This document shows positions 16,490 through 25,340 of a DNA stretch of 64,000 bases, piece by piece (position 1 is the stretch's first letter; every line of letters begins with the position of its first letter). Under the pieces are notes generated by a model. The model did no database searches. It saw only the letters and a program-made list of their open reading frames with translations, and was not told the DNA's origin. The stretch lies in contig JAIWNF010000040.1 of NCBI GenBank assembly GCA_025093555.1, forward strand, positions 434,001-498,000, in the 5' to 3' direction. Both the position numbers and the translations under genes were made by a program. The DNA is from Circinella umbellata. Lineage: Eukaryota; Mucoromycota; Mucoromycetes; Mucorales; Lichtheimiaceae.

Positions 16490-17904
16490 TTAAAATTTAA
16501 CTGTTTCTAAATACTTATCTATTATTAATGTTTCATTAAAATTTTCTTGCCACACCCATTCATTGTATGTTTCATCATAGTTTTTCCATTTTACCAGAAA
16601 TTTCATCCTTTTTTTAAATTTTCTATGACTTAATATTTTTTCTATCTCAAAATTTTCTTCGTCATTTTCACTTTCTAGATCCATATTTGATTCATTTGTT
16701 TCTTGAACATTGTTATAATTAAAATAATTATACAAGTAATCTGATTGTCTATTATTCATTTCTGCTAATTTTATTAAATCAAATTTATATATAATATTAT
16801 TTATTTCTTTATTTGGATTAGGGTAATTAAAGTTTTCATTAGACCATAAAATATGGTTTGGCTTTATAGGTATATTATAAATATCGACAAACTTTTTTAT
16901 ATTTAATAATAAAAGTACTAATTTTAATTGTATATTATAGGTTTTATATCTGTTATTTTACAATTTCTTTCATTATTATTAAATCTTTTAAACTTATTAC
17001 CAAGTATACCAGAATAATTTTCAATTTTACTTCGAAAACTACCAAATGTTTCATTATATAATATTTCATCATCAGTTAACTCTTCATTTTTATTTTTTCT
17101 AATTGGAAACATAAAATTACTAGTGTTTATTTTATCATTTCCTTTTTTATCACAATTTTCTATAAATTTTTCAAAGTAATAATAATATCCACCATCAAAT
17201 GCAAGACAATCATTTTCATTTAATTTATTTTCTAATTTCATATCTAAAAACATTTGCCCATCATTATAATTTCTACATGGCTTACTTTCAGAAATATATA
17301 TTGCAAATTCATTAACATCACAAACTACTTGTGTCCTTAATCCACTTTTTTTAAACTTATAAGAATAAAAATTTCTTTTCTTTATATCTTTTTTTAAGTA
17401 GTCAATTCTACTATCATGACCATCTATAAAAAGAGTTTGATTTTTAAATCCTATTGGATTAATTTTTTTAGCATTAATTATTCTTAAAGCAGTAGAGGAA
17501 AACATATTTTCTAATAATTCTGTAAATAATCTATTTAATTCATTTTTATTATCATCCCAAAACTGTTTATATATTTCATGAAATGAAGAAGATGGTATAA
17601 AATCTTCCATATATCTAAAAGAATTTCCTGTAATTAAATGATATAGAATTAATAATCCTTTTTCCATAAATATATAGGGTCCTTTATAATCATATTTATT
17701 AAATATTTTTACTAAAAAAAAGAATACTGGAATATACCCTATTTTACTAATAAGTTCTTCTTTCACTTTTTCTATATTATCAATACTTTTAATCTCTTCC
17801 CTATGTCTATAATTTGATATCTTTATAGGATAATTCATATCCAAAAAGTACCAATAATTATTATTTATTTTTTGTAATTCATTTGCTAATATCTCTTGTT
17901 CCAT
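16490..17904 (-). pseudogene. DDE transposase with C-terminal chromodomain, frameshifted (element A)
   Basis: Reads from MEQEILANELQ at 17904 to a stop at 16490. It aligns through its whole length with the intact transposase of element B. The presumed catalytic acidic residues are present: FIDGHDS, CLAFDGGY and SFRSKIE. The frame breaks at about 16935-16945, just after KITDIK, by loss of one base compared with element B; the downstream frame then runs without stops into a chromodomain (about 16490-16640; KFLVKWKNYDETYNEWV). This matches DDE_Tnp_4/Harbinger-like nucleases fused to a chromodomain, which may guide insertion to methylated-histone chromatin. Very AT-rich codon use compared with host genes. 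The element carries no Rep gene. Confidence 0.75.
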
Positions 17905-18530: not shown

Positions 18531-19351
18531 ATATTTTGTTGATGAAAATAAAGCAATAGATTATTTATTTAATATCAATATATTACAGAAAATAGAGAAA
18601 TGTGAACATTGTAATAATAAGATGGCATATTATAAAAAGTTAAAATATTATAAATGTTTAAATTATCAATGTAGACGATCAGTTTCAATACGTATTTAAA
18701 AATACTATATTTTATAAATCAAATTTACCAACTCATAAAATTTTACATATTCTATATGAATTTCTAAAAAAAATCACCTCAAAATAGTGTTGCTGTTTCA
18801 TTAAAGGTAACAGCTGTTACTATTAGCTATTATTATAACATGTTTAGAAAGTTGATCATAAATGATACATTAAGAAATATAAAAAATGATATACTTAGAG
18901 GAGAAGATAAAGAAGTTGAAATTGATGAACCTTTATTTAATAAAAGAAAATATAACAAAGGAAAATATAAAGCTAATGGGGTATGGGTATTAGATGGGGT
19001 AGAAAGAAATACAAAAAAAGTATTTACAATACCAGTAGAAAAACGTGATAAAGAAACATTATTAAAACATATTAAAAGTATGTTAGGCCTAATACCAAAA
19101 TAATAGCTGATTGTTGGAAAGGATATATTAAGCTTAAAGAAAATGGTTATCAATATGAAACTGTAAATCATAAGAAATATTTTAAAGATCCTATTTTAAA
19201 AGCATGTACAAATACAATTGAAAGTACTTGGAATGGCTATAAACTCAGTATTAAGCCACAATATAGAGCAAGAAAGCTTTTATATAATCATTTACTAGAA
19301 TGTCAATGGAGAAAAAAGTATTATAATTATGATATTTTGAATAAACTATAA
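18531..19351 (+). pseudogene. IS1595/Merlin-type (ISXO2-like) transposase remnant
   Basis: A zinc-ribbon-like motif CEHC-x(14)-CLNYQC sits at about 18600-18680. The catalytic region follows, with EIDEPLFNKRKYNKGKY, GVWVLDGVERNTKKVF and PVEKRDKETLL at 18910-19080. After a frame change at about 19098 come ADCWKGY, VNHKKYFKDP and NTIEST-W (19105-19235), ending with a stop at 19351. This order is characteristic of the DDE_Tnp_IS1595 (ISXO2-like) fold, called Merlin in eukaryotes. An in-frame stop after the zinc ribbon and the later frameshift make it inactive. I could not find its terminal repeats. A poor 7-bp pair (AGTGGTT near 18450, AGTTGTT near 20040) might be its target duplication. Confidence 0.7.
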
Positions 19352-19543
19352 GTAATAAGATAGAAAATAATAAGATATCCAAAAAATATAGGGTAATAAA
19401 ATAAGAATCCTTTATTTAATAAATTAGATATTACTCCAACAATTAATATAAAAATGATTTAAATATTGTCTAGTACTACATATAAATTATAAAAAAACTA
19501 AATATAATATCTAATAATAAGAAATATATTATACATAATAAAA

Positions 19544-19789
19544 ATGGAAGAAAATCTATTTTTGAATCAAAGTTTTTTTAAGGATATCAAAAGAAGTTTT
19601 GTCCCAACTAAGCTATTTAATCAAAATAAGTACAACTTTAATATTGTAGATGTTAATTTTAAAGTAAAAAAAGATAATATTACATATATAATAATAAAGT
19701 TAGATTCTGGTAAAATTTATGAATATGTATATATAATAAAAAATAATAATATAATTGATGAAGATGTTGAAATGAAATATGAATCTTAA
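19544..19789 (+). CDS. Small AT-rich hypothetical ORF
   Basis: 81 residues (MEENLFLNQSFF...), rich in Asn, Lys and Ile. It lies between the IS1595/Merlin-like remnant and the second host-gene fragment, so it may be a passenger of the inserted element. No family recognised; an open frame of this length is not remarkable at this base composition, although the absence of stops in an AT-rich region is mildly suggestive. Confidence 0.25.
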   Translation: MEENLFLNQSFFKDIKRSFVPTKLFNQNKYNFNIVDVNFKVKKDNITYIIIKLDSGKIYEYVYIIKNNNIIDEDVEMKYES

Positions 19790-20688
19790 AAATTATATAT
19801 ACTAAAATTTAAAAATAAATAGCTGTAATGTTTTTTAATCTTTAATTTTAAAATGATGACTAATCTATTTTATATAATTATATGTAGAATTTGAAATTTA
19901 AAAGTAAAAAAAAAATATAAATATTATATAATCTTTATGATATATATGTTAAAGTATAATGTAACCGAATGTTCTTATGAGCAGTAAGTATTTACTTTGT
20001 TCTATTAATAAGTAGAACTGTATAAACAAAGTATTGCCAGTTGTTTGATAGTTCAGCTCATTCGTTAATTTTGGACATACATGATCCCTATTGGAATAGA
20101 CGCTTCACACCTGATAAACTAAATGAATTAAAAACTTATCACAAACCTAATCTTCAACCATTACCACAAGACTTGCAAGAATATTTGAATAAGTTCCATG
20201 GTGTAGTATGTTTATTCCCTATTTACAATTCATTATATTATTCATTATATATTATATATTAAATAGAACCAATAATTTGCCATTTCAGCATGATCTTGAA
20301 GATCTACTTGCTATTCATAGAAAGTATCGTTTCCATCCTTCAGAAGCTGATAAACATTGGGTGTCAAATGCTATTGGTGAAGTTCTGGACTTGTATTATT
20401 ATAACTACTATGACATTAAAAACAAGACTGAAGCAGATTTGGTACAAAGGCTGTGGGGATTTATTAAAAAATGTTTTAATGAAAGTGACTTTTATGTACG
20501 GAGGCCTGCTATTAGTGGTCTAGCCATTTAGGATCTACTAGCTATCATGTGGCCACTAAAATTTTTACATTTAAATTAAAAATAAATAAAAATTGAATTT
20601 TTTTATTTATATTGGTAGCCTCCCAAGAGAAAAAAAAGAGCCTGTATTTAAAATACATAATATTATTAACGCAAACAAACAAAACACA

Positions 20689-22167
20689 ATGCAATACACT
20701 GAACAACTTGACACTGAAGTTAAAAATTTAGTTGGTACTAAATGGGGTTTTCTAGGAAAACCATGGCCTGAAATCCATCATAGATTTAATCATCGAACAG
20801 TTATAAAGGATATGAAGGGTAATACAATTGATGAAATTAAGGAAGTATTACTTAATAGGTTTGGATTTATACCTGTGTTTTATTTCCTTACTGTTTTGTA
20901 TGGAAATGTTGAATATCCAGGACCATATCGAGAAATAGAAAAGGGACTTGTATTATTATACCATATGGTATCAGGTGAATCAGGAAAGGATATGCACAAA
21001 GTGATGCCATATGCAACATTTTATGATTTATACAAGAGGTTTTGGATTACCAATTATAGTGAGTTGAATAAAAAGGTAAAACAGGACCTAAATGGTATGT
21101 TCTCATCACCACGTATACGCATTCTTGCATCATTAATAAATAATCCAGATGGTTTAAAAAACGTCACGCTATTTATTGATGGACATGATAGTAAAATAAA
21201 GTATTATAAACCAAGTGAACCACATTCGCTACTATACTCATATAAATTGAAAGGACCAGCAGTTCGTACACAAGTTATACAGGATATGAATGAAATAATT
21301 ACACATGTTTCTGTATCTGAAAAGTGCGCAATTGGGAATGATGGTACAATGTTCATACAAATGAAGTTATATAAGAAAATTAGCGAGACAGATTGTTTAG
21401 GTATGGATGGTGGTTATAACTTGTTCATACAAAAGTTTAAAGATAATGCAACAGATGCTGGTTATGGTTTTTATGACCGAAATTTCTTATATCCTATAAG
21501 AAAAGAACCCGGACAAAAATTAACACTAAATGAGACACACTTCAATAATAAGTTTGGGTCATTCCGTTCATCAATTGAAGCACAATTCTCTATGCTTGGC
21601 TCTAAGTTTGAACGATTTAATAACAATCGTGCAGCATTACAAATATCTGATATAAAATACTATAATATTCAGTTTCGCGTTGCATGCATTCTTACTAACA
21701 TCTGGCGATTTGTAGATAAGTATGATATAGAGGTACAGCCACACCATAAGTTATGGTATGGAAAAGGTTTCGAATTTCCAAGTAAGAAAAACAAACTCGA
21801 CTTGGTATTTTCAAATGAGCAAAAGGTAAATACTGAGTATAACGAAATGGTTGAAATGCAACAGAAGTTTTTACAGCTTAATATGAATCAGTCGATAGAT
21901 ATGGTTATTGATAGTGAGGAAGATGCTGATGACAATTTATCAAAACGAAGAAGAAAGGCCACAAGAGGAGGACAAAGAAATAGACAGTATGATAACTCAT
22001 ATGAAATTGAGATAATTGTAGGGCATGTATATACTAACAACAAATATATATTTGAGGTTAAGTGGGTTGGATACGATGCAATGGATAATAGCTGGTTAAC
22101 AATTGATAAGTTTAATGATCGGGAAATGTTACATGAATATATGGCGCCACATGATATTCAGCTCTAA
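20689..22167 (+). CDS. DDE_Tnp_4/Harbinger-like transposase with C-terminal chromodomain (element B)
   Basis: 492 residues, intron-free and without disruptions. The ATG at 20689 (MQYTEQLDTE) is preferred to an upstream in-frame ATG at 20593, which lies in the AT-rich end of the element. The proposed catalytic triad is D164 (LFIDGHDS), D240 (CLGMDGGY) and E297 (SFRSSIEAQF), in the spacing usual for DDE_Tnp_4 nucleases of the IS5/PIF-Harbinger group. An acidic then basic linker (about 408-432, KRRRKATRGG) could be a nuclear localisation signal. Residues 438-485 form a chromodomain (FEVKWVGYDAMDNSW), suggesting targeting to modified histone tails. The protein aligns throughout with the broken transposase of element A. 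Superfamily assignment rests on motif recognition; a distant IS5-like group outside Harbinger is possible. Confidence 0.8.
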   Translation: MQYTEQLDTEVKNLVGTKWGFLGKPWPEIHHRFNHRTVIKDMKGNTIDEIKEVLLNRFGFIPVFYFLTVLYGNVEYPGPYREIEKGLVLLYHMVSGESGKDMHKVMPYATFYDLYKRFWITNYSELNKKVKQDLNGMFSSPRIRILASLINNPDGLKNVTLFIDGHDSKIKYYKPSEPHSLLYSYKLKGPAVRTQVIQDMNEIITHVSVSEKCAIGNDGTMFIQMKLYKKISETDCLGMDGGYNLFIQKFKDNATDAGYGFYDRNFLYPIRKEPGQKLTLNETHFNNKFGSFRSSIEAQFSMLGSKFERFNNNRAALQISDIKYYNIQFRVACILTNIWRFVDKYDIEVQPHHKLWYGKGFEFPSKKNKLDLVFSNEQKVNTEYNEMVEMQQKFLQLNMNQSIDMVIDSEEDADDNLSKRRRKATRGGQRNRQYDNSYEIEIIVGHVYTNNKYIFEVKWVGYDAMDNSWLTIDKFNDREMLHEYMAPHDIQL

Positions 22168-22176
22168 ATTATTTTC

Positions 22177-24276
22177 TTACTTATTTTGCTTATTGAAAAA
22201 CCTCATATTAAAACCAATTGTATCAACCTTTTGTTTATTAGCCCAACTATATTCATGCTTTACATATTCATTAGTTATACTTATGCTTGGTTTTGTATCC
22301 ACTATTTCTTTTTTTATCTCAGACTCTTTTGTTACATCTTTATCACCTATTATGACCTGTTTGATAGCCTTTTGCCTTTTAAAATAGTCTTTAGGCTGTA
22401 TTTCTTCTATGATTTGCTTATTCTTTCGTTTATTTTTATTACGTCTTCTTTTCTTTTTATGCTTTGGTATATTACTTTGTATGCTACAGTCACTGCTTTG
22501 TTCTGATTCAGATGTACTGACATCTATATATTTATGTTTCTCTGTATCCTCTGGTGGATTGTCCCAATTTATGTCTTCAGTTATTAGCTCGTCACACTTT
22601 GTTTCATTTAGTACATCTTCCCAGTTTCTACAATCTGTTGGTGCTAGTGACTTCACAGTTGACCATCCTCTATTAGTTTGCTTCGGCGGGTCATATTGTT
22701 TACTGTCCTGTATATTATGATTATTATACTTTTCCTCTTGTTTTTTCATATATTCTTCTGAATCAGCTAGTTCCTGAAGCTCTTCTGCTCTTTTATCCAT
22801 TGGTGTATATTTTTTCACACCATCTTGACCACTATTCTTAGCATATCGTATAAATGTATGCTGATCTTGGTATTCATTTTCATATTCATTTTTAAATAGA
22901 TCCTCATACATATCCATGTTTTCATAATATATAAATTTCTCTTCATAATCCTTTACATTCATTGTATATGGATTCCATATAATATGTCCTTTACGGTTTT
23001 TATCAACATATATTATATATAAACGGTTTAAAGTTGGTTCTAGCTCATATATTGATTTATTCTTATATAACATATGAGGCATATAATTACTATTCAATAT
23101 TATTGGCATATTCTTTTTTTTAGTAATTGACTTAGTAAATTTACCATTTAGTTTTAATCGTGTTCCTTCTAACATTTGGTTTAGAAATGTTAGTTTGAAA
23201 TCAGAACCTGTTTCTTCATTATACATGAAGTCATAATCATCATCCTTATAATCTGACCAATCATTTTCTTTATTCATCAGATATGCTCGATGACCACCTT
23301 GTTCTATCAAATCTATGTTATATGTCTTTCCAACATTAGATGGACCTACTATCCAGTATTGTGGTATCTTATTTTTCCCACCAAACATCGTTTCAATACC
23401 AAACATGGACCACATATATAATTTATTTCCAGGATTATTTTCCATTTGGGTATCATGGAAGTAGCTATTTAGATTTGATTTTACTGTGTCATATTTCCAT
23501 AATAATTCTGGATACATCTGTGTTGCTTTGGTCATTGTTATTGTTTTATTTATTAAATTATAACCAAGAAGTTGTTGGTGCATTTTTCTGGTCTTAATTT
23601 CATAATTTGGGTCCATGTTATAAGCAATATAATCCTTTCCTTTCATACAATAACTAATTGACTTTTGTGGGTTACCACCTGGTTTAATGTTTGGAGTAAC
23701 ACCATCGATAGTAAAAAATTTACGCGCTGTTTTAGTATCAAATCGTTCATCTAATTGTATCCATATATGCACATGTTTTTCCCCAGTTTCTGGTGCAATT
23801 TCATCACATGCAATTGCCTTTTCAATTCGGTAACCAATACATTCATGCTTTGTAAACCATTCCATTACCTGTTCTTTCGTTAAATGGAAATCCTTACAAA
23901 TATATGTGAATAGTCCCTTAGTATTTTGAAACCGGAATTCTTTATCACCCTGTGAGGTAGCCGCACTGGAAGTGTTACCATCTAACATTGCATCGGAAAA
24001 ATGAGGATTTAAGGATTTGAGGAATCTCACAAATGATCGAATTCTTCCAATGATGTTATTGCGTGATGCATCCTTCGTTGTCTTATCTACTTTAGCCTTC
24101 TTAAGGTCCTTTTCAAGTTCTGACCTTAATTGTGTAACAAGAAGATCAGACTCAATATGCTGATGATTTTCAGCAAGATGTTTTGCTCTTTCAATCAAGA
24201 GCGTCAATGTTATTCCTAAAATAGGAACAAATTCAGCCATAATGGTAATAAATGTGAGCAAATTGATTTGGTCCAT
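22177..24276 (-). CDS. rep: CRESS-type replication initiator: HUH endonuclease plus SF3 helicase (element B)
   Basis: 699 residues from MDQINLLTF at 24276; an upstream in-frame ATG at 24378 would add 34 residues. No intron or break. HUH nickase motifs in order: motif I LFTYI (122-126), motif II HVHIW with H168 and H170, motif III YCMK with the nicking tyrosine Y209 and K212. The superfamily-3 helicase follows: Walker A GPSNVGKT (311-318), Walker B ending N-E-E (353-355), motif C IILNSN (N397) and a likely arginine finger (R418). This is the organisation of Reps from CRESS-DNA viruses and related plasmids. Unlike those, the nickase is preceded by ~115 residues with a hydrophobic patch and a predicted charged helix, and the C-terminus adds ~200 residues with a basic stretch (605-620) likely to act as a nuclear signal. 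No capsid gene is nearby. Confidence 0.9.
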   Translation of the reverse strand: MDQINLLTFITIMAEFVPILGITLTLLIERAKHLAENHQHIESDLLVTQLRSELEKDLKKAKVDKTTKDASRNNIIGRIRSFVRFLKSLNPHFSDAMLDGNTSSAATSQGDKEFRFQNTKGLFTYICKDFHLTKEQVMEWFTKHECIGYRIEKAIACDEIAPETGEKHVHIWIQLDERFDTKTARKFFTIDGVTPNIKPGGNPQKSISYCMKGKDYIAYNMDPNYEIKTRKMHQQLLGYNLINKTITMTKATQMYPELLWKYDTVKSNLNSYFHDTQMENNPGNKLYMWSMFGIETMFGGKNKIPQYWIVGPSNVGKTYNIDLIEQGGHRAYLMNKENDWSDYKDDDYDFMYNEETGSDFKLTFLNQMLEGTRLKLNGKFTKSITKKKNMPIILNSNYMPHMLYKNKSIYELEPTLNRLYIIYVDKNRKGHIIWNPYTMNVKDYEEKFIYYENMDMYEDLFKNEYENEYQDQHTFIRYAKNSGQDGVKKYTPMDKRAEELQELADSEEYMKKQEEKYNNHNIQDSKQYDPPKQTNRGWSTVKSLAPTDCRNWEDVLNETKCDELITEDINWDNPPEDTEKHKYIDVSTSESEQSSDCSIQSNIPKHKKKRRRNKNKRKNKQIIEEIQPKDYFKRQKAIKQVIIGDKDVTKESEIKKEIVDTKPSISITNEYVKHEYSWANKQKVDTIGFNMRFFNKQNK

Positions 24277-25340
24277 ATTGTGTTGATAGTGTTGTGTATG
24301 TGTAGTATTAAAAAATATAACAAATAAATTTGACTTTATATTTTGAGAAGTTATTTTATATAATAAAATAAAATTCAATTTTTATTTTCAAAATTTTTAA
24401 AAGTATGCATGCCAAGACATTCATACATAAATTAATTTAATAAAAATTAATTTGGCTATACCGTTTTGCCTTGGCTATCCATCCGACTAGTGCCAATAGA
24501 TCAGAGCATAATCACTATAACCTTGACTGGTCCCCTACTCAGGTATATAACTTTATTTTTGTTTATAATCTATGATCAAATTGAAACATGCATTATTAAT
24601 AATGTATCAATCTTAGTGGAGAAAAATCAAGCAGTGCTTCAAGTAATCGAAAGAATGAAAATCGGTCAGTTTCTGGGGTCACCCTATTAGTACGTAAAGA
24701 AATGGGGACAAAGCTGATATTCTTATCAAATACTTGGATGATGATTTTGGCGTTGGAAAAGCTAATTTGAGTGGGGGGGCTACCTCGACGAGGTATGTCA
24801 GTGAAGCTAGCATTAAACTCCTTAAAACTATAAAAGATGTCTTCTGGAATCTCTTAAAAATGTCGAACGACAGTGCTCAAGAAATCTGTATTCTAGGATT
24901 CATCATAAATGGTAATAGCTTTTTTTATGGAATCGAAGGTCATGAAAATTGGATCCAATTTTTTTTATGTATTATATTTTTTATCATAAGGCACAGAATT
25001 GACAGTGAAGCTAGTAGATATTCCATCAGGGAATGCTTGTAGGTTATACACATTGGGTCCTAAGGCTTTTCCATGTACTGCTGCCACCTTTTACAAGTAT
25101 TTTATACCATTGATTACAGTAGTTTGGCAATGTAAAAGTTTGTTGAAACAGATGCTGCAAAATTTGAATGATGAGAATGTTCTTTTTGTTCCAACTATTG
25201 AAAACCCTGCACCAAAATAAACTATACCACCCTGTATCCATTCACCAAAAAAACGAGAAGTATCTACTACTACTACCACGACTACCACTACTTCATAATG
25301 GAACTCATATATACCTTTTCTATATCATCAATTTGTATTA

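Follow-up and report, generated by a model that had tools for sequence, protein, structure and literature searches.

Cut-and-paste DNA transposons gain copies through host repair or replication timing, and one that encodes its own initiator of replication would gain another route to higher copy number. Helitrons combine an HUH nuclease with a helicase in a eukaryotic transposon, their Rep carrying an SF1 helicase; to our knowledge, they have no DDE transposase and produce no target duplication. Among elements with a DDE transposase, the PHIS superfamily comprises PIF/Harbinger, ISL2EU, Spy, Pangu, NuwaI, and NuwaII, as listed in the accessible text of the paper describing it (PMC4482050). A closer precedent comes from the truffle Tuber melanosporum, for which the available portion of the report by Liu et al. 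(2011; PMC3198968) describes a multicopy, decayed, geminivirus-like transposon containing both a Rep and a transposase. Rep is interrupted in the reconstructed copy described there, which also has two transposase open reading frames (ORFs; one interrupted and one truncated) and 37-bp terminal repeats, with no obvious target duplication (PMC3198968). The sequence-only reading of the DNA analyzed here had stated that no two-gene transposon with a Rep was known, a statement that the earlier description of the Tuber element overturns (PMC3198968). This element was the one direct precedent among the literature matches listed, in which subscription papers, and apparently Repbase reports too, are thinly covered. 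Because coverage of the literature is partial, the absence of other precedents is weak evidence.

Structure and copies of the element

The window is a stretch of 64,000 bp from Circinella umbellata (C146:434001-498000 of a 50.8-Mb, 210-contig genome). Within it lies a 4,036-bp transposon (20500..24535, in window coordinates), delimited by ends common to five full copies and by paralogous sites that are uninterrupted, found for each of the three insertions tested. An element had been recognized here from the letters at 20518-24487; the element proved real, but that extent was too short at both sides. The target site duplication TAC borders it on the left (20497..20499) and on the right (24536..24538), each copy being 3 bp. 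The terminal inverted repeat is imperfect: GGAGGCC at the left end (20500..20506, forward strand) agrees at 5/7 positions with the right end, which reads GGGGACC inward (24529..24535, reverse strand). Farther in, we read from the sequence an AT-rich subterminal motif, AAAAATTGAATTTTTTT (20588..20604, forward strand), with an inverted counterpart at about 24370-24383. Between the ends are two intact, intron-free, convergent genes, as the first reading had described: a DDE_Tnp_4 transposase (20689..22167, forward strand; 492 aa from its ATG) and a geminivirus-type Rep (22177..24276, reverse strand; 699 aa), whose stop codons are separated by 9 bp (22168-22176). No other ORF longer than 106 aa was found in the window element, and Rfam returned no match in the window. 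Beyond the start of Rep, the Rep-side terminal region (24305..24535, reverse strand) is a candidate cis-acting region; its final ~130 bp also occurs in elements that have neither gene.

Two further features of the window lie to the left of the element. The very AT-rich segment at 19240-19907 is 86.5% similar to DNA near a transposase relative on C164 (L046), and on the reverse strand at 16924-17904 lies a sister transposase from the same superfamily, truncated to 326 aa, which by eye closely resembles a longer copy on C163 (L057).

The same two-gene block occurs five times in the genome (the window copy on C146 and copies on C66, C75, C94, and C162), with identical ends and 99.3 to 99.6% identity over the aligned pieces. 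Each copy has its own 3-bp duplication, the triplet being different in all five (TAC, ATA, AAT, ATG, and ACA). Empty sites were sought for three of the five insertions (window, C162, and C75) and found for all three. When joined, the flanks of the window copy agree at 678/705 positions with a C146 paralogue ~44 kb upstream that is uninterrupted and has a single TAC at the insertion point, which bears out the proposal that the element disrupts a host gene. Four contigs carry an uninterrupted paralogous site for the C162 copy (93 to 96% across the whole joined flank), and one such site, on C32, exists for the C75 copy (83%). Seven left ends were detected at 98 to 100%, five on the full two-gene copies and two (C130 and C15) running off contig ends, alongside five right ends at 100%; this accounting leaves no young copy that has one gene and complete ends, the pattern that a chance side-by-side insertion had been predicted to leave. 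These results confirm that the transposase and Rep move together as a single unit, as had been claimed. Insertion by a staggered cut, as expected of a DDE enzyme, is evident from these 3-bp scars together with the uninterrupted sites.

Not all full copies retain both reading frames. The transposase frame is open in 4/5 of them and the Rep frame in 2/5 (C146 and C66), a difference that we count against the role for Rep preferred below. The Rep of the C94 copy is split by ~4 kb of other sequence (C94:4900-8927). On C3, a somewhat older copy still has its left end together with a portion of Rep, but most of the transposase is gone, as is the front of the Rep gene; no right end for it was among those listed. 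Two spots on C112 resemble the left end: L060 (C112:951300-955300), which contains no ORF of either gene, and C112:13387-13561.

The two proteins and the age of their pairing

Pfam matched DDE_Tnp_4 to residues 170-337 of the window transposase (E = 7.5e-10, above the cut-off) and Chromo to its C terminus at residues 438-484 (E = 6e-5; 23.3 bits, slightly below the cut-off of 25.1). Among the 43 transposases scanned (the window protein and 42 of 56 homologue matches), DDE_Tnp_4 was present at an E value of 0.01 or better in all 43 and Chromo in 17, in agreement with the first description of a DDE_Tnp_4-like gene with a chromodomain. A putative catalytic triad, D164/D240/E297, was assigned from conserved columns of the alignment, in which D164 and E297 are invariant and D240 nearly so. 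The closest homologue found is in Circinella minor (91%), and the transposase profile had no match at E 0.1 among solved structures. We take the DDE_Tnp_4 domain to be a marker of the PHIS superfamily. With this domain, the putative triad, and a short target duplication (3 bp in 5/5 full copies), the element is best read, from sequence, as a PHIS-type DNA transposon, autonomous and with two genes, related to PIF/Harbinger, ISL2EU, and Spy.

The second protein contains an HUH nuclease at about residues 115-208, followed by SF3 helicase motifs at about residues 300-425. Pfam placed Gemini_AL1 on residues 115-208 of the window Rep, a weak match (E = 9.8e-4; 19.6 bits, below the cut-off of 24) that recurs at an E value of 0.1 or better in 9 of the 11 Reps scanned, the best at E = 2.3e-8; the 11 are the window protein and 10 homologue matches, with six further homologues left out. 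The profile of these 11 proteins matches the solved replication-associated proteins 7vg8, 1l2m, 9pqf, and 9pqq (best E = 1.6e-9). HVH, YCMK, Walker A, Walker B, motif C, and an arginine-finger position are all legible in the Rep alignment; we take the residues HVH, YCMK, GPSNVGKT, DFMYNEE, and ILNSN to represent HUH, YxxK, Walker A, Walker B, and motif C. The last three of these and arginine 418 are kept in the alignment, and the SF3 assignment is one by motif: Pfam found no helicase match for the window Rep, RNA_helicase appeared at E = 0.016 in 1/11 Reps, and NCBIfam gave no useful match for Rep. The protein has the makeup of a CRESS-type Rep, with HUH motifs I, II, and III (YxxK) and, as judged by motif, those of an SF3 helicase. 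The earlier claim that all of these motifs are present is upheld by the alignment, by Gemini_AL1, and by the match to solved Reps. Homologues include Circinella minor fragments (51 to 94% identity) and one Rep in Rhizopus stolonifer. In one homologue, P0002, HYY stands in place of the HUH pattern seen in the others that include this region, an exception that was weighed against our preferred explanation.

The pairing of the two genes is older than the five young copies. In a diverged copy on C68 (83 to 88% DNA identity), transposase and Rep are convergent as in the window, with an extra insert of ~0.7 kb in Rep; its left end is recognizable, and its flanks, ATT and CTT, form no clean duplication. 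Relative to C68, dN/dS was 0.137, 0.189, and 0.179 for three overlapping stretches of Rep and 0.128 for the transposase, values by which both genes are judged to have been under purifying selection since the split from that copy. Substitution counts among the young copies are too small for dN/dS; the frame-broken Rep of C75 has nine amino acid changes versus one silent change. Conserved motifs, selection, and repeated cotransposition support the view that Rep is a long-kept functional partner and not debris. A second, distant pairing is suggested by the Rep homologue P0002 and the transposase homologue P0029, whose longest contigs are both given as exactly 4,459 bp, as if both lay on one contig. 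In the transposase tree (51 rows: the window protein, 42 homologues, and 8 same-genome relatives, with C164 and C57 left out), the window protein falls among chromodomain transposases, Rep-less sisters included, within a starred 14-row set, and P0029 falls outside this set. It follows that Rep either was an early component, later lost or replaced in some elements, or was acquired on more than one occasion.

Sister elements, satellites, and the role of Rep

Relatives of the transposase outnumber those of Rep in this genome (at least 94 rows, with 87 of 232 candidates scored, versus 25 rows). One sister family has the transposase only: an element of 2,005 to 2,008 bp on C13 and, within an inverted duplication, twice on C198, with the duplications CTT and ATA and with three right ends, none further being found among the matches listed. 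In another family (C79, C130, C95, and C18), a small, convergent, Cys-rich gene occupies the position of Rep, and the duplications are ATA on C130 and CAG on C18; the flanks of the C79 copy do not match, and the C95 copy is cut by a contig edge. In the sister transposons of L037, L038, L039, and L040, the product of the convergent gene in Rep's position is ~170 aa long and shows a Cys/His pattern; Pfam matched neither of the two Cys-rich proteins tested. As these sister families move without Rep, DDE transposition in general does not depend on it.

Matches to the right end of the Rep element were listed for 28 places (29 rows), many of which adjoin an unrelated ORF oriented like Rep. Two such satellites, on C112 and C4 (1,244 and 1,247 bp), consist of the element's first 26 to 27 bp, an intact ORF of 297 to 298 aa in Rep's place (L049:347-1237 and L056:335-1228), and the element's last 230 bp, and their duplications are ATA and AAG. 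This ORF has no Pfam match, and a stretch of 41 aa within it resembles residues 87-127 of Rep. The genome has 38 rows for it, most of them broken and some covering just the stretch shared with Rep, with dN/dS of 0.067 to 0.26 (nine comparisons, some with few codons). A further derivative, on C57, is 485 bp long with the duplication ATT. In the three gene-poor derivatives for which a left end was found, ~220 to 230 bp of the Rep-side end and ~27 bp of the other end are kept; the other right ends examined yielded no left end, ten of the stretches being merely 0.5 to 0.7 kb long. The piece common to all right ends is the last ~130 bp (23 sequences aligned; 22 in a second alignment, with L068 left out).

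We lean, with modest confidence, toward a combined mechanism in which the DDE enzyme cuts and pastes the element and Rep, as its kept partner, copies the excised or nicked element by a rolling-circle-like reaction before reinsertion. The DDE-chromodomain transposase, presumably the enzyme behind the scars, would excise the element and insert it with a 3-bp stagger. Rep would work on the excised or nicked form through the Rep-side terminal region, and its rolling-circle-like reaction would raise copy number ahead of reinsertion, so that the element may copy itself as well as move. That Rep acts on the Rep-side end is suggested by the conserved nuclease and helicase, by selection, and by the recurrence of this end in satellites; its retention would also be explained if the satellites stem from a small number of ancestors or if the transposase requires that end. 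More tentatively, we envisage a two-phase cycle of DDE excision and insertion, with Rep amplifying the excised circle via the Rep-side cis region and gene-carrying satellites parasitizing that same region.

Several results were counted against the preferred mechanism. A fused right-left junction had no match in the assembly, which was searched with an exact pattern and may collapse tandems. A 10-bp AT stem at 24429-24453 showed no covariation beyond that of shuffles, and the ANTATTAC core occurs once inside the element, within the transposase ORF. A CRESS origin stem-loop with its nonanucleotide was not found in the element, which leaves room for an unusual origin. An origin hairpin in the right noncoding region was considered and found no support: the 259-bp right noncoding strand gave a seemingly strong z = −3.25 in a shuffle test, but the alignment of this region backed it with neither a consensus hairpin nor covariation. 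Across the window as a whole, ANTATTAC is present 49 times, versus 25 expected from shuffles (largest shuffle, 39).

The failure to find an origin or a circle junction, in alignment or assembly, would fit a Rep that instead helps the transposase by binding, nicking, or unwinding DNA and does not replicate the element. Such a helper would fill the place of Harbinger's Myb-like protein or ISL2EU's YqaJ nuclease; second accessory genes are common in the superfamily, according to the accessible text on PHIS elements (PMC4482050), and the position of Rep is taken by a different small gene in sister elements from this genome. The conservation of SF3 helicase motifs beside the nuclease, however, exceeds the needs of a binding role, and we consider a helper function rather unlikely. 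It is less probable still that Rep is cargo, with a job unrelated to transposition in a block moved by the transposase alone. Transposase-only sisters have complete ends and 3-bp duplications, Rep is broken in 3/5 young copies, and the Rep slot is swappable, since same-ended satellites hold the unrelated ORF of 297 to 298 aa there; yet Rep has been under purifying selection over the same interval as the transposase, and its nuclease and helicase motifs are intact.

The geminivirus-like nuclease domain of Rep would also suit a CRESS virus or plasmid that acquired a transposase and integrates by means of it, but we regard this origin as very improbable. The element has no further ORF above 106 aa and therefore no obvious capsid gene of the kind that would mark a CRESS virus, and the transposase tree nests the window protein among transposases of Rep-less elements. 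Scans of viral contigs for relatives of Rep or the transposase, and of prokaryote genomes for relatives of Rep, found none, although these scans were not exhaustive because they were built on two or three short peptide patterns. Chance adjacency of a solitary integrated Rep, such as an endogenous viral one, and an unrelated transposon is scarcely credible and was rejected: Rep-less transposase relatives are indeed common in the genome, but the same block was inserted five times with the same ends and its own duplications, three insertions have uninterrupted sites, and the old C68 copy has the same layout.

Comparison with known systems

The element resembles PHIS transposons, as characterized in the accessible text on that superfamily, in its DDE domain, mostly short terminal repeats, usual 3-bp duplication, frequent second gene, and size of ~4 kb (PMC4482050). 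It differs in that its second gene is a Rep and not a Myb/SANT or YqaJ gene, and its duplications, taken as a set, fit none of the group consensuses given there (TWA, AT, none for Spy, ANT, CWG, and TNA; PMC4482050). The TWA of canonical PIF/Harbinger elements is found in 0/5 copies and the ANT of Pangu in 1/5 (AAT), and the second ORF has no Pfam match to Myb/SANT, which separates the element from canonical PIF/Harbinger and from Nuwa. A DDE gene and a 3-bp duplication likewise distinguish it from Helitrons. DDE transposons with a captured enzyme gene are represented, in the available parts of two reports, by fungal DNA transposons with a TET/JBP dioxygenase (PMC12730594) and by KolobokP with a homing endonuclease (PMC9587614); the enzyme is a different one in each case. 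Within C. umbellata itself, the sister elements, with no second gene, a Cys-rich gene, or a Rep, provide a natural comparison.

The closest counterpart is the Tuber element, which, in the available portion of its description, likewise joins a Rep and a transposase within one repeated fungal element (PMC3198968). That case, as described there, is a reconstructed and decayed copy without target duplications (PMC3198968). In C. umbellata, because copies exist that are intact and recently moved, with clean scars and uninterrupted sites, the question of replication is directly testable. Compared with what is accessible on the Tuber element, the window element has an intact Rep, one intact transposase, and imperfect terminal repeats of ~7 bp, and its family has a 3-bp duplication at 5/5 sites and an old linkage between the genes (PMC3198968). 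What is new relative to the Tuber case is therefore the combination of (i) two intact genes, (ii) 3-bp duplications, and (iii) old linkage.
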